A stretch of 64,000 nucleotides of DNA from Chloroherpeton thalassium ATCC 35110 (GTDB lineage: Bacteria; Bacteroidota; Chlorobiia; Chlorobiales; Chloroherpetonaceae). The notes beneath the pieces were generated by a model. The model was not told the DNA's origin and did not search any database. It saw only the letters and a list, made by a program, of their open reading frames with translations. Shown here piece after piece: positions 24,717 through 41,600 of this stretch; positions within the stretch are counted from its first letter, which is position 1, and each line of letters starts with the position of its first letter. The translations under genes were made by a program, and so were the position numbers. Location of the stretch: contig NC_011026.1 in assembly GCF_000020525.1 (NCBI RefSeq), positions 3,020,001 to 3,084,000 on the forward strand. The letters are read 5' to 3'.

Positions 24717-27700
24717 ATGAAGTTCTTCAAGATTTTTTCAATTGCGCTGTTACTTAATATCGGGTTGGGAGCATCGAAACTATTCGGACAAAGCAGCCTG
24801 CTTCAAGGGTCATTATTCAAGTCGAGTACTGCTTCACAAAGTGCGTCGGCCAGTTCAGAAGAAGACTCATCTACAAGTAGTGGAACAAATCTTGAAACTT
24901 TAACCAGCGTGACGCAAGAATCGAAAAGCGCCGTCTTGCTGGAATTTAATTTTGCAGCGCCGGAAGTTGAAACAAGTGAAACCTCCTCTACCAATAAGGT
25001 TTCCTTCTCACAAAGCGAAAATCAAGTCACAAGCTCTCAGTCGGCAATTCCATCTTTCAGCTATGCCATAGAAGGAAAAATACTGAACGCTCAAATTACA
25101 AGCAGAACCTATGGCAAATCGATTAAAAATGCGTCTTTTTCAACGACTTCATCAGAAACCACAACAGATCGTCCTTTAGGACTTGAGACAGAAAACAGCG
25201 AAAGTAACGAATCCAGCTCATCCTACACGACATCCTCAAGCACAAGTTCTACAAAAAGCGATATCGAATGGCATTATTCCGGAAAAATGCGCGGCACAGA
25301 TATTTCCCACCTGACCATTTCTCCTTACAAATACAACAGCAAAACCCAATCACTTAGCTACACAAGCGCGATTACCGTGCAGCTAACGCTGGACAAATCG
25401 TCGGAGACCGATTTTCAAGTTGGGATTGATACCAAAAAACTTTTGCAGCGCACGCCGAGTTCGCGTCGCCATTTTTCGAAGTCAGAATCTGTTTTAGGAA
25501 AAAACACAGCGTCTAAAAGCACGGCCAAAACAACAACCGCAACCAGCAAAAGCACATTCAATTCTGTTTTTTCAACTGAAATACAGAGCAGCGTTGATAT
25601 TTTGCCCGTCACCCCCAAATATCGCCTTATCATTGATGAAGATGGCGTTTATCAGATTGATTACTACGACCTGATTGATGAAGGCTTTCCTTCTGATTTC
25701 TTTACCGCCGATCCACGCACCATTCGCATTTTCAATAAAGGTGACGAGATTCCGATTTATGTGAAAGGTGAAGAAGATGGGGAATTTGACCGAAGTGATT
25801 ATATCGAATTTATTGGCGAAGCTAATCGCATTGGCCTTTCCGACTCCGACAGGCCAGACATGTATTATGATCCTTATACTGATGAAAATGTCTATTTCCT
25901 CTACTGGGAATCGACGCAAACGAGCTCAAACTCAGGCCTTAGACTGGTAGATGTTCCAGCACAAATTCAAGCGACCATTCCGCTTAAAAGTGCATTCAAC
26001 CTCACCGGCAGCTCGTTCCGCTCATCTGTTCATTTCGAAGAAAATAATGTTACAACCGAACGCATGAGCGGCTTCTACAGCATTTTCAATCAAGAGGAAT
26101 ACGAAACAACGAGAAATCACTCCGACGCTCGCGATTTGGATTTTTGGACATCTATCTATCACGGGCGCGCAAGCACATTTGACATTATCATTCCGTATCC
26201 CGATCAAAGCGTTAGTTCGGATACAGCAGGCTTAAGGGTTCGTGCGGCGTTTCACGGACTCAGCATGGTAGCGCTCAGCGGAGAACCGCAAAATACTGCC
26301 GTCATTTCGCTTGGCACTTCATCTTCAACATTTGAAGTCACAGAAACAAGTTGGGGAACAAATGTCTATTCAAACAGCAATTACAGCCGTCAGGAAAAAA
26401 ATGTTGTTGATGTCAAATTAGATATTTCAAAACAGCGGTTGCTTGACGCCGATAGCGCAGACGTTGTACAAATCAGCAATACCGACGACATTTCCACAGG
26501 CAGCAGCTCGCGCGTTTTTTATTTCAATTGGTTGGACATTACCTATCGCAGGCTGTATCGCGCATACAACGACATGCTCGAATTTACAACGCCGCCGACC
26601 AGGCGTCCTGGAACTTATCATTTTCAAATCACAGATTTCACGACATCCGATATTGATATTTATAAAGTCGGCGTCGGCAAGCTGACTAACTTTATTGTAG
26701 AAAGCTACGTTTCAAGCGAAGAGGACGAAACCTCCGCTGACGGAGAAAAGTATTACCGCGCCATTTTTCAGGACGCTGTTGTCAATCCTGAAGATGTGAC
26801 ATACATCGCCGTTAGTTCCGACCAAAAGAAAGACCCTTCGCGCTATGAAGAGGTGGAACCATCAAACTTGTTCAACCAAAGCAACAAATTAACGGATCAA
26901 AGCAACTCTTACGATTATATCATTATTACGTCTGACGAGTTTATCAACAGCAGCAACTTTGAAAAAACCAGCAACCCTGTTCGCCAATATAAAGAGTATC
27001 GCGAATCATACTTGAAAGCGATTGGGGAAACCGGCAATGTGTTGGTTGTTACAACGCAAGCCGTTTATGACGAGTTCAACTACGGCATCAAGAGCCCACA
27101 CGCGATTCGCGACTTCCTTGACTATGCGTATCACGAATGGGCTGTTGCACCCACTTATGTTTTACTTTTAGGCGACGCGTCTTACAGCACTTCCAACGAC
27201 TATGTTCCGACTATGCACGTGCAAACGCTGCGTTTCGGGGCGACTGCCGCAGATGTTTGGTATGCGATGGTTGACGGACTTGATGAATCTGGCCAGCTCG
27301 ACCTTTTACCAGACATGCAAATTTCCCGCGTGCCGGCGCGCTCACTTTCAGATATTAGCGCCTATTTAGAAAAACTCGAGAACTACGAACTCTACATTAC
27401 CAATTCATCTGAAGCCACCATTGGCACATGGCGAAACACCGTTGTGATGATTGCTGGAGAAACGGGTTCGGAAAGCATTGGTAGTTCATCTGTTCGCAAA
27501 GACGCCTTTGTCACTCAAATTGACAATTTGTTAGCCGATTATGTCAACCGAGGATACTTTGTAAAACGAATTCATACCAATTTGGGCAGAAATGCCTCAT
27601 CCGATATCACCTTCACTGATATTTACAGAGGAACTCGCTCCGACTTGCGAACCTATTTAAACGACGGGTGCCTGATTTTAAACTTCTTAGGCCACGGCGG

Positions 27701-30386
27701 TGGCGGCGTTTGGTCAGATAGCCAAGTGCTAACGCTTGATGGCGTAAGCGACTTGAGCAACTACAATACCCTGCCTTTTGTCACCAGCATGACATGTTTC
27801 ACAGGCGCATTTGATGAACCGCAATTTAATGCGCTTGGGGGCACACTCACCGAAGAACTCATCCTGGCCGAACAAAAAGGCGCGATCGGAGTGATTTCAT
27901 CTTCTGGGCTTGGCTGGCTCATCAACGACGAATTGATGGCGAACGCGCTGTATGAATTCCTCTTGAACGATAAATATCAAGGGCTCTCTATTACAGACAT
28001 GATGTTTCGCGCCAAAGTCTCTTATTACTTAGATAATATTTACACCTGGTTGCAAGCCCCAACCATGCTCTACCAATATGGCGTTTTTGGAGACCCGGCA
28101 CTTCGCCTCTCATCGCCCATCGTAGAAAACAGCAGCAGCAACTATAACATCAATTGGTCTCTGGAAACTCACTTAGTAGAAATTGGCGATACGCTCAAAG
28201 TAACAGGAACAGTTGATGGCATTACTACCGGTATCGGCTATGGATACTTAGCTGATAGCGACAATCTGGATGTTTCGGAAGACGCGGCCACTTTGTTTTT
28301 CATCGATGATGGAAAAATCAACGCTGTTTCCAACGGGCAACTATCGGACACGCTTTACATTTCAATTGAAGAACCGGTTCAAATTACCAGCACCAACGTG
28401 TCGAATTTTAGCGGCGGATTGTTTAAAGTTTATTTGCAAGGTTCAGACGAGGACGAAGGGAAAGATTTGAACGGTTATGTCTCATTCAGTTCAACAGGAA
28501 CTTATATTCATTACGTTGAACCCAACCAAGACATTAGCACAGCTGAAAATACTGATGTAAAATTCACGGCAAAGGTCGAATCTAAAAGTACGATTTCGAG
28601 CATTGGTGTTCTTGTTACCCTTTCTGAATTGGACGAAAACTTTGAGTATGAAACCATCAGCGGTTGGCAAAATAAATTTTTGACAGCGACATTCACGTCC
28701 GACAATGTGTACACGACAACAAACGCCATTCCGGGCGATTTATTACAAAAAGGCGTGAAAGTTACTTATTCGCTTTTTGTTAAAACAGCAACAACTTCTT
28801 ATAGCACCTCGTCGGTAAGCGCCATTGTTGGCGAACTGCCGGATGTGGCTGCTTACAGTGAAGCGAAAGAAGGGCTGCTCCAATTTTTCGACAATACCAG
28901 CATTGATTTTTACACGGAAAATAATCAAGTTGTTTTAGGCGCAACCGTTTATAACTGGAGCGGCGTTGATGCAAACAACGTGATTGTGAAATTTTACAAC
29001 GATGCCATTACTAATGGCGCACCCAACCAAAATACCACCCCGACTTTAAGTTCTTCCGCACAACCGATTGGCATCGATACGGTGGACATTTCAGCCGAAA
29101 GCAGTACACTCGCCACCATTCCGATTCCCGATAGCTTTGTGCTGTCCGAAACCTATAATATTGGGATTCGCGTTTATGTTGATACATCAAGCTCGTATGA
29201 GGACGATTACACCAACAACTTATCGAATAGCAATGAAGTTACTTACGACTTGGTGTACGTATCTCAAAGCGCTGGCGACTCTCTGAAAATAGACACTGAT
29301 GTTACTTTAGTTTATGAGGCGGCGGCCTTTTCAAAAAGCGGATTTCTCCAAATAACCAAGGTTCAAAATCCAACGGTCACCTCGCAGCCCGATAATGAAT
29401 TTGTTCGCTTGGCCAGCCAAAGTGGAACCGACGAAGACAATACTTACGCTTACACCATTGCAACATCGGACAGCAACTTAACCATCTCGAAATCCATTGA
29501 GTTGATTCTTAAGTTTGACATGACCGACGATGTTATCGATAACTCCTCGAGCAATGCCGCTCTTGTGTATGGCTATTTTTACAGTGAAAATTATGACCGC
29601 TGGCTAAAAGCGAGTTCGCAAAGCAAGACCGATGAAAGCACCGTGAATATGGAAATCTCGGAATTTGGAGAATATGCCCTGATGTATTCTTCCGACGTTT
29701 CAAGCCCGGTTGTCTCTTTAGGCGTTGAAGGGCAATACAACGGTTCAAAAGTTTTTGCGCCCAAACAAGCCAGAATCATCGCAACGGTGCAAGATCAGAA
29801 TGGCGTTTATCTTGATCCCGATTTTATCACGATTATTCTTGATGATGACAGCTCAGATGCCCTTACGTCAAAACTAACTCTCCCACAATCTTCTTCCAAC
29901 GCAAACAGCGTGGCCGTTTATTTTGACGAGGAATTTGAAGTTGGCACTCACGAGATTACGTTCATTTTTCATGACGCAAACCTGAATGAAACACGCAGTG
30001 AAACAATGGAAGTGATTGTTGAGGATGATTTCGGGTTGGTCGTATATGGCAGCTTTCCAAATCCATTCGCAAACGATGGCACAGATATTGCCTATAGAAT
30101 TACAGGCACGGAAGGCGCAACTTCATTTGAAATCAAAATCTATACCGTCGCCGGAAAATTGATTAACACCTATTCCCGACAAAATAGAAACACCTTAAGC
30201 TTTAATGACGACCGAATCAAAATTACAGGTGATGATCCTGGAACTGTTGGACTTCATGTGATCAATTGGAATGGGACAGATGGTGATGGTGCAGAAGTGG
30301 CTAATGGTGTGTACTTTTGCAAAATCAAGGCGAGCTTCAATGGAAATGCCAAAGAAGACATTATTAAGATTGTCCGCCTTCGCTAA
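24717..30386 (+). CDS. porU: Type IX secretion system sortase PorU (C25 peptidase)
   Basis: The 1889-residue exported protein has a signal peptide (about 1-24), a Ser/Thr-rich N-terminal region (about 30-290) and a gingipain-type C25 peptidase domain. The likely catalytic pair is His993 (NFLGHGGGGVWSD) and Cys1027 (SMTCFTGAFDEP), spaced as in gingipains. The C-terminal part has Ig-like repeats and ends in a FlgD/T9SS C-terminal-like domain from about 1780 (SFPNPFAN, then GLHVINWNGTD and ANGVYFCKI). PorU removes sorting domains from T9SS cargo and attaches it at the cell surface. It is larger than typical PorU (about 1150-1300 residues). porV follows 18 bases on. Confidence 0.9.
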   Translation: MKFFKIFSIALLLNIGLGASKLFGQSSLLQGSLFKSSTASQSASASSEEDSSTSSGTNLETLTSVTQESKSAVLLEFNFAAPEVETSETSSTNKVSFSQSENQVTSSQSAIPSFSYAIEGKILNAQITSRTYGKSIKNASFSTTSSETTTDRPLGLETENSESNESSSSYTTSSSTSSTKSDIEWHYSGKMRGTDISHLTISPYKYNSKTQSLSYTSAITVQLTLDKSSETDFQVGIDTKKLLQRTPSSRRHFSKSESVLGKNTASKSTAKTTTATSKSTFNSVFSTEIQSSVDILPVTPKYRLIIDEDGVYQIDYYDLIDEGFPSDFFTADPRTIRIFNKGDEIPIYVKGEEDGEFDRSDYIEFIGEANRIGLSDSDRPDMYYDPYTDENVYFLYWESTQTSSNSGLRLVDVPAQIQATIPLKSAFNLTGSSFRSSVHFEENNVTTERMSGFYSIFNQEEYETTRNHSDARDLDFWTSIYHGRASTFDIIIPYPDQSVSSDTAGLRVRAAFHGLSMVALSGEPQNTAVISLGTSSSTFEVTETSWGTNVYSNSNYSRQEKNVVDVKLDISKQRLLDADSADVVQISNTDDISTGSSSRVFYFNWLDITYRRLYRAYNDMLEFTTPPTRRPGTYHFQITDFTTSDIDIYKVGVGKLTNFIVESYVSSEEDETSADGEKYYRAIFQDAVVNPEDVTYIAVSSDQKKDPSRYEEVEPSNLFNQSNKLTDQSNSYDYIIITSDEFINSSNFEKTSNPVRQYKEYRESYLKAIGETGNVLVVTTQAVYDEFNYGIKSPHAIRDFLDYAYHEWAVAPTYVLLLGDASYSTSNDYVPTMHVQTLRFGATAADVWYAMVDGLDESGQLDLLPDMQISRVPARSLSDISAYLEKLENYELYITNSSEATIGTWRNTVVMIAGETGSESIGSSSVRKDAFVTQIDNLLADYVNRGYFVKRIHTNLGRNASSDITFTDIYRGTRSDLRTYLNDGCLILNFLGHGGGGVWSDSQVLTLDGVSDLSNYNTLPFVTSMTCFTGAFDEPQFNALGGTLTEELILAEQKGAIGVISSSGLGWLINDELMANALYEFLLNDKYQGLSITDMMFRAKVSYYLDNIYTWLQAPTMLYQYGVFGDPALRLSSPIVENSSSNYNINWSLETHLVEIGDTLKVTGTVDGITTGIGYGYLADSDNLDVSEDAATLFFIDDGKINAVSNGQLSDTLYISIEEPVQITSTNVSNFSGGLFKVYLQGSDEDEGKDLNGYVSFSSTGTYIHYVEPNQDISTAENTDVKFTAKVESKSTISSIGVLVTLSELDENFEYETISGWQNKFLTATFTSDNVYTTTNAIPGDLLQKGVKVTYSLFVKTATTSYSTSSVSAIVGELPDVAAYSEAKEGLLQFFDNTSIDFYTENNQVVLGATVYNWSGVDANNVIVKFYNDAITNGAPNQNTTPTLSSSAQPIGIDTVDISAESSTLATIPIPDSFVLSETYNIGIRVYVDTSSSYEDDYTNNLSNSNEVTYDLVYVSQSAGDSLKIDTDVTLVYEAAAFSKSGFLQITKVQNPTVTSQPDNEFVRLASQSGTDEDNTYAYTIATSDSNLTISKSIELILKFDMTDDVIDNSSSNAALVYGYFYSENYDRWLKASSQSKTDESTVNMEISEFGEYALMYSSDVSSPVVSLGVEGQYNGSKVFAPKQARIIATVQDQNGVYLDPDFITIILDDDSSDALTSKLTLPQSSSNANSVAVYFDEEFEVGTHEITFIFHDANLNETRSETMEVIVEDDFGLVVYGSFPNPFANDGTDIAYRITGTEGATSFEIKIYTVAGKLINTYSRQNRNTLSFNDDRIKITGDDPGTVGLHVINWNGTDGDGAEVANGVYFCKIKASFNGNAKEDIIKIVRLR

Positions 30387-30404: not shown

Positions 30405-31484
30405 ATGATACGAAAGGTTTTGAATCACACTATAAAAACTTGGCTGAGTGGCTTAGTCGCTCTTTTTGCACTTTGTCCTTCAGCAAATGCGGCCTCAGAA
30501 AACTACACGGCGGCATTTCTTGACATCCCACTTGGGGTTCGCGCTTTAGGGTTGGGCGGCCAATACTCCCCTATCGACAATTATGACGGAACAGCTTTTT
30601 ATTGGAATCCGGCTGGCGTTGGGCTCGCAAAAGGGAAATTACTCTCAACGCTATATTCTAACCAGTTTGGCTCATTTAATGATCCGCTCACGAAGTATTT
30701 CTATATCGGCTACACGCAGGACATTGGCGATGGCGTTGGGTTTTCAATCAATTGGATCAGAAATAGCATTTCTGATATTCCTTATGCCCCTGATGAATTG
30801 GACTTAACAGATATTGATGATTTGCTTAGCCGTTTAGAAAGCGGCGATTTTTTGGATGGAACATTCAACAATGCTGACGATGCTATTTTTGTTTCTATCG
30901 GAAAAAACATTGCAACTTCAGTGGATTTCGGTTGGCAATATTTTAACCTGCCAATCTCTTTACCCGTTGGTATCACTTTTAAATACATCCATCAAGGATT
31001 TTCAGGAAATAGTGCGGTTGAATATTCAGGAACTGGCGTTGGCATTGATGTAGGCGGACTGCTTAAATTTAATTTAGGAGATTTCGTATCCAACAAATCT
31101 TATGGCGATGTTGCGCTGGGACTTACCTTGAGAGATATTTTCAATACACCAATATCATGGAATACCGAGCTCAAAACAAAATCGTCGATAAAGCGCTCGT
31201 ATTTGCTTTCATTTTCATATAAGCAACCGCTTCCTTTTATTTCAAGCTCTTTAATGTTCGTTTATTCATATTCCAGTAAATACGATGGGCTCTCATCAAT
31301 TGGCCTTGAGTATAAATATCGAGAATTATTAGCATTGAGAGTCGGTTCGTACGACAGCGAAGCTTCTTTAGGAGCTGGAATATTTTTCAATAGTTCTGTC
31401 TTTATAGATTACGCTTACAATTTCAATGACCTTGGAGGAATTCACCGAGTAGGCGTCTCGCTCCTTTTATCAAGAATTTTGTAG
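30405..31484 (+). CDS. porV: Type IX secretion outer-membrane protein PorV
   Basis: A 359-residue outer-membrane beta-barrel with a signal peptide (about 1-29) and the N-terminal PorV/PorQ motif FLDIPLGVRALGLGG followed by YDGTAFYWNPAGVG. Alternating hydrophobic strands run to the C-terminus. PorV shuttles T9SS cargo to the PorU attachment complex, and porU immediately precedes it with an 18-base gap, as in many T9SS genomes. It could also be PorQ, a paralogue; the position next to porU favours PorV. Confidence 0.88.
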   Translation: MIRKVLNHTIKTWLSGLVALFALCPSANAASENYTAAFLDIPLGVRALGLGGQYSPIDNYDGTAFYWNPAGVGLAKGKLLSTLYSNQFGSFNDPLTKYFYIGYTQDIGDGVGFSINWIRNSISDIPYAPDELDLTDIDDLLSRLESGDFLDGTFNNADDAIFVSIGKNIATSVDFGWQYFNLPISLPVGITFKYIHQGFSGNSAVEYSGTGVGIDVGGLLKFNLGDFVSNKSYGDVALGLTLRDIFNTPISWNTELKTKSSIKRSYLLSFSYKQPLPFISSSLMFVYSYSSKYDGLSSIGLEYKYRELLALRVGSYDSEASLGAGIFFNSSVFIDYAYNFNDLGGIHRVGVSLLLSRIL

Positions 31485-31495
31485 TCCGCTTGGCC

Positions 31496-32398
31496 ATGAT
31501 TAATAACATAACGCGAAATATCTTAGAGCGCATTCGGCTTGCTATTTTACCAGCCGCATTTCTTGTTTTTGCGGTTAGCTGCACAGATGATGAATTGACT
31601 TCAACTCCGAGTTCGCCTCAGTTTGTCGAAAAAAGTTCAGATACCGCTACATACGATCAAGGCATTAGACCTATTTATATTTCTGACCCGGAAGACGACG
31701 CAGGCGTTTACTTACAATGGCACAACAACACCGAAAAGGACTTAGAAGGATATAAACTTTACCGGACAACAGAAACAACACCCTCAAATGGAGAGGATGT
31801 CCCTATTAATTTTCAGCTTTTAAAAACGATCCCATTAGGATCTCAAGACACGAAACAATTGCCGGATACCGCATATGAAGACTACTCCGTTGATCTAAAC
31901 ACGACCTACTACTACCGGCTGACGGCGTACTCGTCATCCGATGGAGAAAGTTTGCCGTCATCTGAAAAGCCAAGTTATTACTTAACTGCCGGAGTGACGC
32001 TGTTAGAACCAAGCGGCAGCTTTTCTATGCCAGAAGACAGTTCAATTACGTTTTCATGGCAGTCGTCTGTTTCATTTTCTGGGGGAACATATTTGTTGAA
32101 AGTTTATTCGATAGACGACTACACGGGAGAGGAAACCATTGTGTCGCAAACAAGCCTCGTTGACGGCTTCGCTGCTCTTGAGAACATAGAAGTCACCGTA
32201 AGCTATAAAACACTTGGAGAGTTTGGTGGGTACAGTTTTAGCGGTAGCAATGAAAGAACTGTTATTTATAACGAACTTGAAAGCAGTGGTACCAGTAGCT
32301 ACGGCCAGCGTTACTATTGGCGTGTGTATTTTTTGAGTAGCGGCATAGACAATTTAGTGGGATCAATTACTGAAGGCTCATTTGAAATCACCAATTAG
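31496..32398 (+). CDS. Lipoprotein with fibronectin type III-like domain
   Basis: I use the ATG at 31496 (300 residues); a TTG two codons earlier is possible. The signal peptide ends in a lipobox-like FAVSCTDD, so lipidation at about Cys29 is likely. Residues about 60-155 look like an FN3 domain (VYLQWHNNTEKDLEGYKLYRTTE ending in YYYRLTAYSS). The rest is a second beta domain (FSWQSSVSFSGGTYLLKVYS) with a Tyr/Trp-rich end. It starts 12 bases after porV and is probably co-transcribed. Function unknown; a surface or attachment-complex accessory role is inferred from position. Confidence 0.72.
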   Translation: MINNITRNILERIRLAILPAAFLVFAVSCTDDELTSTPSSPQFVEKSSDTATYDQGIRPIYISDPEDDAGVYLQWHNNTEKDLEGYKLYRTTETTPSNGEDVPINFQLLKTIPLGSQDTKQLPDTAYEDYSVDLNTTYYYRLTAYSSSDGESLPSSEKPSYYLTAGVTLLEPSGSFSMPEDSSITFSWQSSVSFSGGTYLLKVYSIDDYTGEETIVSQTSLVDGFAALENIEVTVSYKTLGEFGGYSFSGSNERTVIYNELESSGTSSYGQRYYWRVYFLSSGIDNLVGSITEGSFEITN

Positions 32399-32419
32399 CA
32401 GAATAACTAAAAAACATTC

Positions 32420-32959
32420 ATGAAAAAAGTTTGTACAACTATCTTCGTTTTGTTAATTTTGGCGTTAGATAGTAACTTGGCGTTATCGCAGGTATTTGGA
32501 GGAACGAGAAGCGGGACACCCTCAACAAACTCATCTAATATTGAGGCAGCAAGTCCATCAGCTTATTACTATGGACGCGGTGAAGGGGTGTTAATAGATG
32601 TTAATCTTTGGGGTCAAGTTGGGAAACCAGGAAAGTACTTCGTACCTTACACGACGGATTTGATTTCTTTGATCTCAATTGCAGGAGGCCCTACCAATCA
32701 AGCAAAGCTTGATGAAGTCAGGATTGTTAGATATGCACAACGCGATACCACGGTAGTTGAAAAAATCGCGAGAGTAAATATCATACGGTTTATTGAATAT
32801 GGAGAGCAAAGTCATATTCCCCCGTTGGTTAGAGGTGATACAGTTATTGTTCCAGGTGATGCTTTAAGTGTTTTTCAAACGTTCGTCAGTATTGCTTCAA
32901 GTATCAGTGTTGTTATAAATACATTCTTATTGATAGCGGTAATTAACGATCGTATTTAA
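32420..32959 (+). CDS. Orphan SLBB-domain exported protein
   Basis: A 179-residue protein with a signal peptide (about 1-23) and one SLBB (ubiquitin-like) domain at about 57-135, seen as DVNLWGQVGKPGKYFVPYTTDLISLISIAGGP and PPLVRGDTVIVPGD. It ends with a hydrophobic segment (about 150-175). SLBB domains are usual in Wza-type export proteins, where they follow a Poly_export domain; that domain is absent here. The gene lies 21 bases after the FN3 lipoprotein gene rather than in the polysaccharide locus. A role as a periplasmic/outer-membrane adaptor is inferred. Confidence 0.75.
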   Translation: MKKVCTTIFVLLILALDSNLALSQVFGGTRSGTPSTNSSNIEAASPSAYYYGRGEGVLIDVNLWGQVGKPGKYFVPYTTDLISLISIAGGPTNQAKLDEVRIVRYAQRDTTVVEKIARVNIIRFIEYGEQSHIPPLVRGDTVIVPGDALSVFQTFVSIASSISVVINTFLLIAVINDRI

Positions 32960-33027
32960 AAAAAATTATTGCTAAGTTTTATAGCAAGCATTATAAATAA
33001 TTTTAATTACCCATTTTTGGAGGTGAT

Positions 33028-34209
33028 ATGGGAAATAGGTTATTAATACTTATTGCCGTTGTTTTTATATTTGTACTTAATTGTAATACAGCTCAGTCCC
33101 AATACGTATATACAGCCAGTTCACGTTTTGTAAGATTACAAGAAGCATTAACTCCTCAATCAGGCCATCTTACATTTTATAACCATTTAGATCTCAGCAC
33201 TTCATCAGAAGGTTATGTAGGTGTGCAAGATTTTATCGCTCAATGGATTGTTAGAAATTCCATGGTTATGGATTATTCCGTGACAGATAATTTCTTGCTT
33301 GCTGTGAATGCAAATGTATACCAAGATATACATCTTTTAAGCGAGGAAGCCAGCACTCCGCTAGATCATTTAATATTATCTGCAAAACTTGGCTCATATA
33401 GTTTTGCGAATGATTTCTTTTACATTGGATTTCTCACTTCTGTTTTTATCCCTGTTTCCGATTACAATAATATTTACGGTGTTCCCTACACTGGCGGGGG
33501 CACAGAGGTTGGCTTTAACATTTTATTATCATATTACGCTGATAATCTATTTCCTCGCGAGTCGCTATGCTTTACAATTAATTTAGGGTACTATAATTAC
33601 TTTGATAAAGACAACAGCATATCTCATAAAGAAACAAATCCATATTATGTTTCTCAAAATTCCTCATCAATTAATTATGGATTAGGCGTTAAATATCCGA
33701 CAGAGACACTAGACTTATTTTTAGAAGTTTGGGGAAACACATTTATGCAGCAGCCTCCTGCTATTGCGTACTCAAGAGAAGATATGGCTTATGCAACATT
33801 AGGGTTTAAGGTAAAACCAATCTCATTTGCAAGTTTTACGTTAGCAGGGGATTTTCTCATTTCTGGAGATAAAGATGAGACGCTTTACGATGATGGGATT
33901 TATAGTGTCTACCATATATTTCAATTGCCAACAGCAAGTCCTAAAAATACTCCTGATTGGAGGTTTGTTTTTGGAATACAGCTTAACATTCTCCCGCTTA
34001 ATCAGCTTACAGCCAGTGTTGATCCACGTGCTGTAGAATTGACTTCTGAAAATCAAAATGCAGATATCATCAAAAAATTAGAAGATGTCCGTACTGATAA
34101 AACTATTACCGTAAAGAAAATTGATGAATTGACCCAAAAAAGAAAAGACATTGAAAAAAATCTACAGTTATTGCGCCAGATATTAAAGGACTCGAGTTCA
34201 GAAAAATAA
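33028..34209 (+). CDS. Outer-membrane beta-barrel-like protein, unknown function (copy 1)
   Basis: A 393-residue protein with a signal peptide cleaved after about AQS (residues 1-27), then YVYTASSRFVRLQEA. Amphipathic aromatic strands through about 330 suggest an outer-membrane beta-barrel. The C-terminal 60 residues are charged and predicted helical (KKIDELTQKRKDIEKNL). A strong GGAGGTGAT ribosome-binding site precedes the ATG. It is a paralogue of the next gene; I recognise no named family. Its place after porUV and the SLBB gene suggests a surface role, but no function can be given. Confidence 0.7.
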   Translation: MGNRLLILIAVVFIFVLNCNTAQSQYVYTASSRFVRLQEALTPQSGHLTFYNHLDLSTSSEGYVGVQDFIAQWIVRNSMVMDYSVTDNFLLAVNANVYQDIHLLSEEASTPLDHLILSAKLGSYSFANDFFYIGFLTSVFIPVSDYNNIYGVPYTGGGTEVGFNILLSYYADNLFPRESLCFTINLGYYNYFDKDNSISHKETNPYYVSQNSSSINYGLGVKYPTETLDLFLEVWGNTFMQQPPAIAYSREDMAYATLGFKVKPISFASFTLAGDFLISGDKDETLYDDGIYSVYHIFQLPTASPKNTPDWRFVFGIQLNILPLNQLTASVDPRAVELTSENQNADIIKKLEDVRTDKTITVKKIDELTQKRKDIEKNLQLLRQILKDSSSEK

Positions 34210-34299
34210 CTATTCTTGTCTTGCTTAACGGCTCTACTTGCTGTTTGATGTTTAAAAAAGCTGTTTTATTTTTTATTTATAAAAATTAAGTGTATTGCT

Positions 34300-35457
34300 A
34301 TGTTTCGATATAAAAAATTAGCTATTCTATTTTTACTGCTGTATACTTCTTTTTACAATAGTGCTTTTGGGCAGTACATTTACACAGCAAATTCTAGATT
34401 GATTCATGTCCAAGAAGCCACTATACCTTCTGATGTGAAATTCTCATTGTATACTCATATCGAGGGGTATGCCTGGTTAAGCCAACTTACTTCTGAGACA
34501 AGGTTTTTTATCCTTAAATCAATGGTAACTGCAGATTATGCTCTCACTAAAAATCTACTATTTTCTTTAAGTCCAACAATATATCAAGATTTAAATGGGA
34601 TAGACGGCGAAAGCGCTGATTTTCCACTTCATCATCTTATACTATCTTTTAAATATGGAGGAATAGAGTTACTTTCATCAAATCTTAAAGTAGGTGTTTT
34701 AACATCGGTTCTTGTTCCATTGACTGATAAGAATAATATCTATGGTGAGTTGTATACTGGTGGAGGAATTGAGTTAGGCGGTAATTTACTTCTTTCTTAT
34801 TATACAGATAAATATTTTCCTGATGAATCATTTAGCATTCATGCAAATATTGGGTATTATAATTTCCAGGATCAAGATCAAGATCTTTCGCACAACTCAA
34901 CACCTATCATTCTCGCGGGAAACGTATCTGCCGTTAATTATTCATTAGGTATTAAGCTGCCTGCTAGTTTTATGGATATGGATAATGAGTTGTTTCTCGA
35001 ATATTGGGGACAAAAATTTATAACTCGTCCCCCTGTAATGGTTTATAGCAGAGAAGACATTTCATTTGTGACTTTTGGCGTAAAATTCACCCCAAAATCA
35101 TTCCTTAGCTTTCAGCTTGCAGGAGATTTATTAGTTACAGGCGATGACGACGAAACAACTTATGGGAAATATGGAATTAGATATTATCCATCCGCAAGCT
35201 ATCCTGATTATAAGTTGTCTTTTGGAGTTAAATTCAACATTATTCCTATGGATAAGCTTACAACCGTTGCAAAACCAGTTGATCTTCCAGCAAGAAGCAG
35301 CGAAAGTGTCAATTTTGAAATGCTTTATCAAGATAATGCTCAAAATGAAAAAGTAGAGCAAATAAAAGCCATTAGAATGGATATAGAAAAGAATTTACGT
35401 CAGATACGTGAAGCACTTAAGGGTGATTACGACTCAGGAAATCAAGAAGAAGAATAA
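34300..35457 (+). CDS. Outer-membrane beta-barrel-like protein, unknown function (copy 2)
   Basis: A 385-residue paralogue of the preceding gene. The shared blocks are YIYTANSRLIHVQEA near the start, NNIYGELYTGGGIE in the middle, YSREDISFVTFGVKF and a KNLRQIREALK helical C-terminus. The order and spacing of blocks match copy 1, so the pair came from a tandem duplication that has diverged strongly. It has a signal peptide (about 1-25). A strong terminator follows, closing the transcription unit that probably begins with porU. Confidence 0.7.
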   Translation: MFRYKKLAILFLLLYTSFYNSAFGQYIYTANSRLIHVQEATIPSDVKFSLYTHIEGYAWLSQLTSETRFFILKSMVTADYALTKNLLFSLSPTIYQDLNGIDGESADFPLHHLILSFKYGGIELLSSNLKVGVLTSVLVPLTDKNNIYGELYTGGGIELGGNLLLSYYTDKYFPDESFSIHANIGYYNFQDQDQDLSHNSTPIILAGNVSAVNYSLGIKLPASFMDMDNELFLEYWGQKFITRPPVMVYSREDISFVTFGVKFTPKSFLSFQLAGDLLVTGDDDETTYGKYGIRYYPSASYPDYKLSFGVKFNIIPMDKLTTVAKPVDLPARSSESVNFEMLYQDNAQNEKVEQIKAIRMDIEKNLRQIREALKGDYDSGNQEEE

Positions 35458-35472
35458 CCTTTTTTCTTAAGA

Positions 35473-35514
35473 AGAAACAATACTCTTCTCAAAGAATGAG
35501 TATTGTTTCTTTAT
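35473..35514 (+). terminator. Rho-independent terminator after the paralogous barrel genes
   Basis: A perfect 13-bp stem (AGAAACAATACTC with GAGTATTGTTTCT, 35473-35485 and 35498-35510) with a 12-base loop is followed by TTATTAT. It separates the porU-to-barrel unit from purL. Confidence 0.88.
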
Positions 35515-37990: not shown

Positions 37991-38416
37991 ATGAACACGC
38001 ATCAAAAAGCAGCTATGGAGTTTATAGACGATGTTTATAATCTTGCTTATTGGATGACGGGCAACGAAGCGAGCACAGGGATGCTGGTGAGCCAAGTTTA
38101 TTTAAACACGCCAGGTCAAACTTCAGCAGAAGATTTGTTTAAGCTTTTTAGAAAACACTATCTCAATGCATTTGGACAAAGTACCGCATTCAACGCGTCT
38201 GATGTGATGTTCATTGAAGATGGTGATGTAGCCAAAGCCGTCCTTAACTTGCCATCGGATTTCAAGCTGGTTGTTTTATTGAGCGATGTCTTAGAACTGA
38301 CTCATACCGAAATTTCACATATCATAGAAAAGCCCATTGATACTGTACGTTCTTGGATTCATTGGGGACGAAAGCTTCTCGGAAAAGAAATCGCAGAACG
38401 CGCTTCTGCAAACTGA
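37991..38416 (+). CDS. Very short sigma-70/ECF-like protein
   Basis: A 141-residue protein. Residues about 80-135 (LPSDFKLVVLLSDVLELTHTEISHIIEKPIDTVRSWIHWGRKLL) look like sigma region 4 with a helix-turn-helix (sigma factors use LGxSxxEIAxxLxxSxGTVKSRL). The N-terminal part (FIDDVYNLAYWMTGNEASTGMLV) resembles a weak region 2.1/2.2, but regions 2.3-2.4, which open and read the -10, appear missing or short. Canonical ECF factors are 160-200 residues. An AAGAAAGG ribosome-binding site precedes ATG. No anti-sigma gene is adjacent. It may be a degenerate sigma factor or a DNA-binding regulator. Confidence 0.6.
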   Translation: MNTHQKAAMEFIDDVYNLAYWMTGNEASTGMLVSQVYLNTPGQTSAEDLFKLFRKHYLNAFGQSTAFNASDVMFIEDGDVAKAVLNLPSDFKLVVLLSDVLELTHTEISHIIEKPIDTVRSWIHWGRKLLGKEIAERASAN

Positions 38417-40699: not shown

Positions 40700-40999
40700 A
40701 TGGCTTTAATGATCACTGAGGAATGCATGAATTGCGCGCTCTGTAAACCGGAATGCCCAAATGTAGCAATTTACGAACCGGATGCGCCATGGAAACTCTT
40801 CGGCGAAACCTACGCCGCACTGAGCAACAATGTTTATTACATTGTGCCAGATAAATGCACCGAGTGCGTGGGCTTTCATGAAGAACCGCAATGCGCTGCC
40901 GTTTGCCCTGTTGATTGCTGCGTAGCAGATCCTAATTTTCCTGAAACGGAAGAAGAGCTGCGCTCTAAAAAAGAAGCGTTAGTGGCGGACAATAGCTAA
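40700..40999 (+). CDS. 2[4Fe-4S] ferredoxin (copy 1)
   Basis: A 99-residue Chlorobium-type ferredoxin. The first cluster motif is CMNCALCKPECP and the second is CTECVGFHEEPQCAAVCP, with the eight-residue insertion between the second and third Cys that marks this family. A C-terminal helix (EEELRSKKEAL) follows. It accepts electrons from photosystem I-type reaction centres and feeds the reductive TCA cycle and ferredoxin-NADP reductase. A GGGAG site precedes ATG by about 5 bases. The second ferredoxin gene follows after 304 bases. Confidence 0.95.
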   Translation: MALMITEECMNCALCKPECPNVAIYEPDAPWKLFGETYAALSNNVYYIVPDKCTECVGFHEEPQCAAVCPVDCCVADPNFPETEEELRSKKEALVADNS

Positions 41000-41303: not shown

Positions 41304-41600
41304 ATGGCGTTAATGATCACTGAGGAATGCATCAATTGCTCAGCTTGCATTCCAGAATGCCCGAACACCGCAATTTACGAACCAGGTGATCCTTGGGAAC
41401 TCTTCGGTGAAAGTTATGAGTCACTTAACGACGAAATCACTTATATCGTACCAGACAAATGCACAGAATGCGTTGGCCATCATGAAGAGCCACAATGCGT
41501 TCCAGTTTGCCCGTCAGACTGCATTGTCCCAGATCCAAACTTTAACGAATCTAAAGAAGACTTGCTTGCTAAAAAAGAAGCTCTCGAGTCAAACGGTTAA
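41304..41600 (+). CDS. 2[4Fe-4S] ferredoxin (copy 2)
   Basis: A 98-residue paralogue of the preceding ferredoxin, with cluster motifs CINCSACIPECP and CTECVGHHEEPQCVPVCP. Differences concentrate in the loop around residues 25-50 and the second cluster region, where copy 1 has AAVCPVDCC and this copy PVCPSDCI. The C-terminus is again a charged helix. Its own leader, strong ribosome-binding site and terminator suggest separate, probably high-level expression. Both copies likely carry low-potential electrons for CO2 fixation, possibly with different partners. Confidence 0.95.
   Translation: MALMITEECINCSACIPECPNTAIYEPGDPWELFGESYESLNDEITYIVPDKCTECVGHHEEPQCVPVCPSDCIVPDPNFNESKEDLLAKKEALESNG

Follow-up and report, generated by a model that had tools for sequence, protein, structure and literature searches.

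A widely conserved, T9SS-linked module of FN3, SLBB, and in some lineages barrel proteins downstream of porU and porV in Chloroherpeton thalassium

Downstream of the T9SS genes porU and porV, the genome of Chloroherpeton thalassium ATCC 35110 (a single contig of 3,293,456 bases) encodes an FN3 lipoprotein, a stand-alone SLBB protein, and two outer-membrane barrels. The view that FN3-SLBB(-barrel) is a T9SS-linked and widely conserved module is well supported. The module also appears to be undescribed: within our partial coverage of the literature, where an earlier notice elsewhere is possible, we found no paper that describes it, no paper that considers SLBB together with PorV, and no mention of an SLBB protein in the T9SS literature. 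As for its function, we tentatively suggest, with somewhat less than even confidence, that it is an attachment module that exports or presents PorU's lipid-linked glycan acceptor. These proposals rest on the conservation of gene order, on the domains of the proteins, on the fact that the module occurs together with SprA and CTD cargo, and on the relatedness between the SLBB protein and proteins of polysaccharide export.

The window (the whole stretch of DNA that we analyzed) is 64,000 nucleotides long, from position 3,020,001 to 3,084,000 of NC_011026.1, and all positions below refer to the window. The gene order is secA (21459), porU, porV, FN3 lipoprotein, SLBB, barrel 1, barrel 2, and purL (35579), with these features:

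24717 to 30386, + strand: porU, C25-family T9SS sortase of 1889 amino acids; first gene of the unit, with secA upstream
30405 to 31484, + strand: porV, outer-membrane protein of the PorV/PorQ family
31496 to 32398, + strand: FN3 lipoprotein, with a lipobox cysteine and two FN3 domains
32420 to 32959, + strand: stand-alone SLBB protein, with a signal peptide, a linker, one SLBB domain, and a C-terminal amphipathic helix, and without Poly_export
33028 to 34209, + strand: barrel 1, a predicted 12-stranded outer-membrane barrel with a coiled coil at its C-terminus
34300 to 35457, + strand: barrel 2, a paralog of barrel 1
35471 to 35512, + strand: intrinsic terminator (hairpin and U tract, -21.1 kcal/mol, z -6.9) at the end of the unit

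The unit from porU to barrel 2 is likely, by our prediction, to be one transcript. Its intergenic gaps are 18, 11, 21, 68, and 90 bp (the 11 bp gap becomes 5 bp if the FN3 lipoprotein gene begins at an alternative in-frame TTG at 31490), and the hairpin agrees with a previous sequence-only reading, which had the set end at a terminator near 35473. A pattern scan missed this hairpin, perhaps because the scan's rules are unsuited to a long A+T-rich stem. Between 26000 and 40000, promoter-like matches were not above chance (26 observed and 32 expected), so these matches speak neither for internal promoters nor against them. The 68-90 bp gaps could house promoters, and we found nothing else in favor of these genes being chance neighbors with no functional link; that idea is refuted by gene order that is conserved in several phyla, and we consider it extremely improbable. 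The window also encodes a small sigma-factor-like protein (37991-38416) that adjoins purL, in a neighborhood kept in Chlorobia genomes, and two closely similar, tandem ferredoxins of the 2[4Fe-4S] type (40700-40999 and 41304-41600).

The linkage between porUV and the module far exceeds chance. Among the other Chlorobia genomes, the order porU-porV-FN3-SLBB-barrel is intact in all 10 that have a porV ortholog, and porV orthologs in Chlorobia invariably adjoin porU. In Chlorobiaceae, porV was found in 0 of 29 genomes and the barrel was likewise absent. Across the phylum, a profile of the SLBB protein identified porU-porV-(FN3)-SLBB in four more families, and a scan of named genomes yielded 50 SLBB loci, including loci from Kryptoniota, Kapabacteria, Calditrichota, Cloacimonadota, and Gemmatimonadota. 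For 44 of these loci there were at least 2.5 kb of DNA upstream: porV (just upstream of SLBB) was present in 40, porU in 39, and the FN3 gene in 34. The sequence-only reading had proposed that this neighborhood be checked, and that a lack of porUV linkage in relatives would count against the module; the linkage is instead present in Chlorobia and in most of the 44 loci. Linkage in several phyla also gives strong support to the suggestion of an accessory module, tied to porUV, that joins an SLBB protein with surface attachment. Separately, a Latescibacterota contig (L164) has porV and then an open SLBB frame of 350 amino acids, with no FN3 gene detected.

A barrel gene was found downstream of SLBB in 22 of the 45 loci with room downstream. 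In the Kryptoniota, Kapabacteria-like, and Gemmatimonadota genomes that were tested, a search for the gene at other sites found none, and the Cloacimonadota genome that was searched for it had just one marginal match, to the coiled-coil tail. Because the barrel is missing from many carriers, we view PorU-PorV-FN3-SLBB as the core of the module and the barrel as a lineage-restricted addition.

The module occurs together with other parts of T9SS. SprA (TIGR04189, over the cut-off) was found in all 22 of the cassette genomes tested and not in a Chlorobiaceae control. Matches to the CTD of T9SS cargo (Por_Secre_tail) numbered 31 in C. thalassium and 22-150 in each further cassette genome that was tested, with 0 in the Chlorobiaceae control. 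These results bear on the suggestion, also from the sequence-only reading, that the module is an accessory for gliding or for anchoring slime. Chloroherpeton-type Chlorobia glide and Chlorobiaceae are not known to, and the module's presence in the former and absence from the latter fits such a role. However, the core is also found in Cloacimonadota, Kapabacteria, Gemmatimonadota, and Calditrichota, and it tracks the whole of T9SS (SprA and CTD cargo), so we now think that a role in gliding or slime anchoring is very unlikely. Thus, what stands of the earlier interpretation is an uncharacterized SLBB/attachment module linked to porUV, and its specificity for gliding or slime is not supported.

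Neither GldL nor GldM in canonical form was found over the cut-off in the cassette genomes tested. Many SprA-positive Bacteroidota without the cassette likewise have no match to the GldM models, so the absence of GldM does not discriminate, and we dropped the absence of GldM and GldL as a hallmark of the cassette. (Phylum-wide, 303 of 394 Bacteroidota genomes have SprA, and just 100 match the GldM model; the motor models may be narrow, or many T9SS may lack the motor.) The main rival to glycan presentation is a structural role within the T9SS translocon, in which the module would scaffold SprA/PorV or link them to peptidoglycan or to an energizing complex, replacing PorK/N/G-like parts. The constant linkage to porV, the presence of SprA, the failure to detect GldL and GldM, and the coiled coil on the barrel all fit this idea, but the GldM models fail in SprA-positive genomes without the cassette as well, and elsewhere the SLBB family accompanies Wzc/Wzz. 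A structural role is possible, if on the unlikely side.

To our knowledge, T9SS is known almost solely from Bacteroidia. It was noted earlier in other FCB phyla (PMC11285876), and an older survey reported no T9SS outside of Bacteroidetes (PMC4793230). A more far-reaching idea, which we regard as quite unlikely, is that the deep FCB T9SS lacks the canonical PorK/L/M/N motor-ring set and that, through the module, the PorU sortase is directly coupled to a glycan exporter in the outer membrane; this combined machine for secretion and glycan ligation would be older than the Porphyromonas-type attachment complex.

By its sequence, the PorU of the window is a divergent PorU-like protein that is assignable to neither NCBIfam equivalog. 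It matches Pfam's Peptidase_C25 (E = 1e-86), and its matches to T9SS_sortase (3e-70, 237 bits) and PorU2 (5e-70, 236.7 bits) are below the equivalog cut-offs of 420 bits for PorU and 450 bits for PorU2. Inspection of the translation by eye identified GHG and SMTC motifs with the candidate catalytic histidine and cysteine, and the C-terminus has a weak match to a sorting domain. Similarly, PorV is a divergent member of its family (PorVQ2, 5e-16, and PorV_fam, 3e-15, both below cut-off).

The protein families that the sequence-only reading named downstream of porV were borne out. The FN3-like lipoprotein has two FN3 domains in its AlphaFold model (pLDDT 88.7), which matches tandem-FN3 structures with Z of about 10-11, and its lipobox cysteine is invariant across 39 homologs. 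(We rejected a surface-export signal behind this cysteine: acidic residues are found in the protein from the window and its nearest relative, but they are not conserved family-wide.) The SLBB protein does stand alone. It matches Pfam's SLBB model (E = 2.6e-5, slightly below the gathering score), and Poly_export (PF02563) had no match in it or in seven homologs. A profile of the family matches the SLBB part of solved OPX/Wza proteins (PDB 9n9a residues 104-184 of 186, 5e-6) and residues 176-252 of E. coli GfcE (E = 4e-4), which places the family, as judged from sequence, with the OPX polysaccharide-export proteins. The C-terminal helix of the SLBB protein is amphipathic; in a shuffle test over 20 related sequences, p was 0.004-0.09. 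Given the lipobox, the SLBB domain with its amphipathic helix, and the barrel, the three kinds of protein fit the outer membrane or the periplasm.

In the remaining Bacteroidota families examined and in Chlorobiaceae, SLBB relatives adjoin Wzc/Wzz-type genes of polysaccharide loci. These proteins share the short architecture and the family of the SLBB protein from the window, whose partner is instead PorU-PorV. In a tree of SLBB proteins, whose deep forks are weakly supported, the Wzc/Wzz-linked copies split into two groups that lie among those of the cassette. In other Bacteroidota (L106, L107, L108, L109, and L114), a conserved block places the Wzc-linked SLBB gene next to an FtsX-like gene as well. 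Chlorobiaceae (for example L111 and L112) lack the T9SS markers that were tested, yet encode a short SLBB protein next to a gene of the Wzz type.

Perhaps SLBB and the barrel form a composite polysaccharide exporter that merely shares an operon with porUV and makes a separate exopolysaccharide. The kinship to OPX proteins and the pairing with a barrel resemble short-OPX/beta-barrel translocons (PMC9601211), and the SLBB relatives do occupy polysaccharide loci. But the cassette contains neither a polysaccharide gene nor Poly_export, the tie to porV is constant over several phyla, and the barrel is absent from many carriers, all of which make a separate exporter highly doubtful. In the translocons EpsY/EpsX and VpsN/VpsM, an SLBB protein is likewise encoded beside an outer-membrane barrel; unlike them, the module has no Poly_export, no adjoining co-polymerase gene, and 12 barrel strands instead of 18. 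A kinship to the 18-stranded EpsX/Wzp barrels was set aside, given the 12 strands of the model, and no such barrel was among the matches listed, which is not an exclusion.

The two barrels are, as the sequence-only reading held, related outer-membrane proteins with helical C-termini: they are 39% identical, and the AlphaFold model of barrel 1 (pLDDT 78.3) has 12 strands and a coiled-coil tail (helices at 340-390). The nearest folds to this model are the COG4313 channel (Z = 20.9) and FapF (Z = 20), over about 240 residues and at about 10-12% identity. The 12-stranded fold is thus shared with these channels, and the coiled coil sets the barrel apart from them; no amyloid genes were seen nearby. 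In the barrel tree, barrel 2 and the second barrel from a sister genus group together (support 100), and separate duplications account for the pairs in Chloroherpetonaceae, in another Chlorobia genome (G009), and in Calditrichaceae. Each of these pairs arose within its own lineage, so we rejected an ancient pair, with the fork of the sister genus's first barrel not placed. A second group of barrel paralogs, of about 500-600 amino acids (L064, G000:C1:1679868-1680932, and L038:15487-17304), has a long C-terminal part that is TonB-like by eye and has no Pfam match.

In our preferred reading, PorU and PorV would act at the cell surface, where they would process cargo and carry it. Together with the barrel (where present), the FN3 lipoprotein and the SLBB protein would form an outer-membrane and periplasmic complex. 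This complex would export or present a lipid-linked polysaccharide onto which PorU would join cargo. Three steps of this reading are inferred, namely the joining of the proteins into one complex, their handling of a glycan, and the use of this glycan by PorU as its acceptor; it is likewise a prediction of this proposal that the window's PorU acts as a ligase, beyond being a peptidase. The role would be like that of PorZ and A-LPS, which serve PorU in Porphyromonas, and like the GfcB-GfcC-GfcD assembly of the E. coli group 4 capsule.

PorU of P. gingivalis attaches cargo to the A-LPS that PorZ delivers (PMC8545088). The attachment complex there (PorU, PorV, PorQ, and PorZ) has in common with our module the PorU and PorV families, an outer-membrane or surface setting, and a T9SS with CTD cargo; the module adds the FN3 lipoprotein, the SLBB protein, and the 12-stranded barrel. 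In E. coli, GfcB, GfcC, and GfcD bind one another (PMC8592465). Both GfcC and Wza have an amphipathic helix at their end, and GfcD resembles FapF in its N-terminal half (PMC9603273); GfcD has been proposed as an exporter of lipid-anchored polysaccharide, which it would pass into the outer membrane (PMC11494523). GfcB-GfcC-GfcD (and YjbF-G-H) share with the module a lipoprotein, an SLBB protein without Poly_export and with a terminal amphipathic helix, and a FapF-like barrel, in identical order. In contrast to Gfc, the module has one SLBB domain instead of two, FN3 domains in its lipoprotein, and linkage to porUV, and it lacks GfcE, Etk, and Etp. Homology to GfcB, GfcC, or GfcD was not detected by hhalign (probabilities of 3%, 0.3%, and 1%, with power limited by the single E. 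coli sequence on one side), and we keep the likeness as an analogy of layout and parts.

Some observations count against glycan export. The cassette has no Poly_export domain and no co-polymerase gene. Known polysaccharide barrels have 16-18 strands, versus 12 in the barrel 1 model. Also, the barrel is missing from the tested Kryptoniota, Kapabacteria-like, and Gemmatimonadota genomes, so it is not a universal exporter. A module that is locked to porUV over several phyla suggests that the attachment step has a part yet to be accounted for, and its proteins are candidates for bringing sugar acceptors to PorU in bacteria with no known PorZ and A-LPS.
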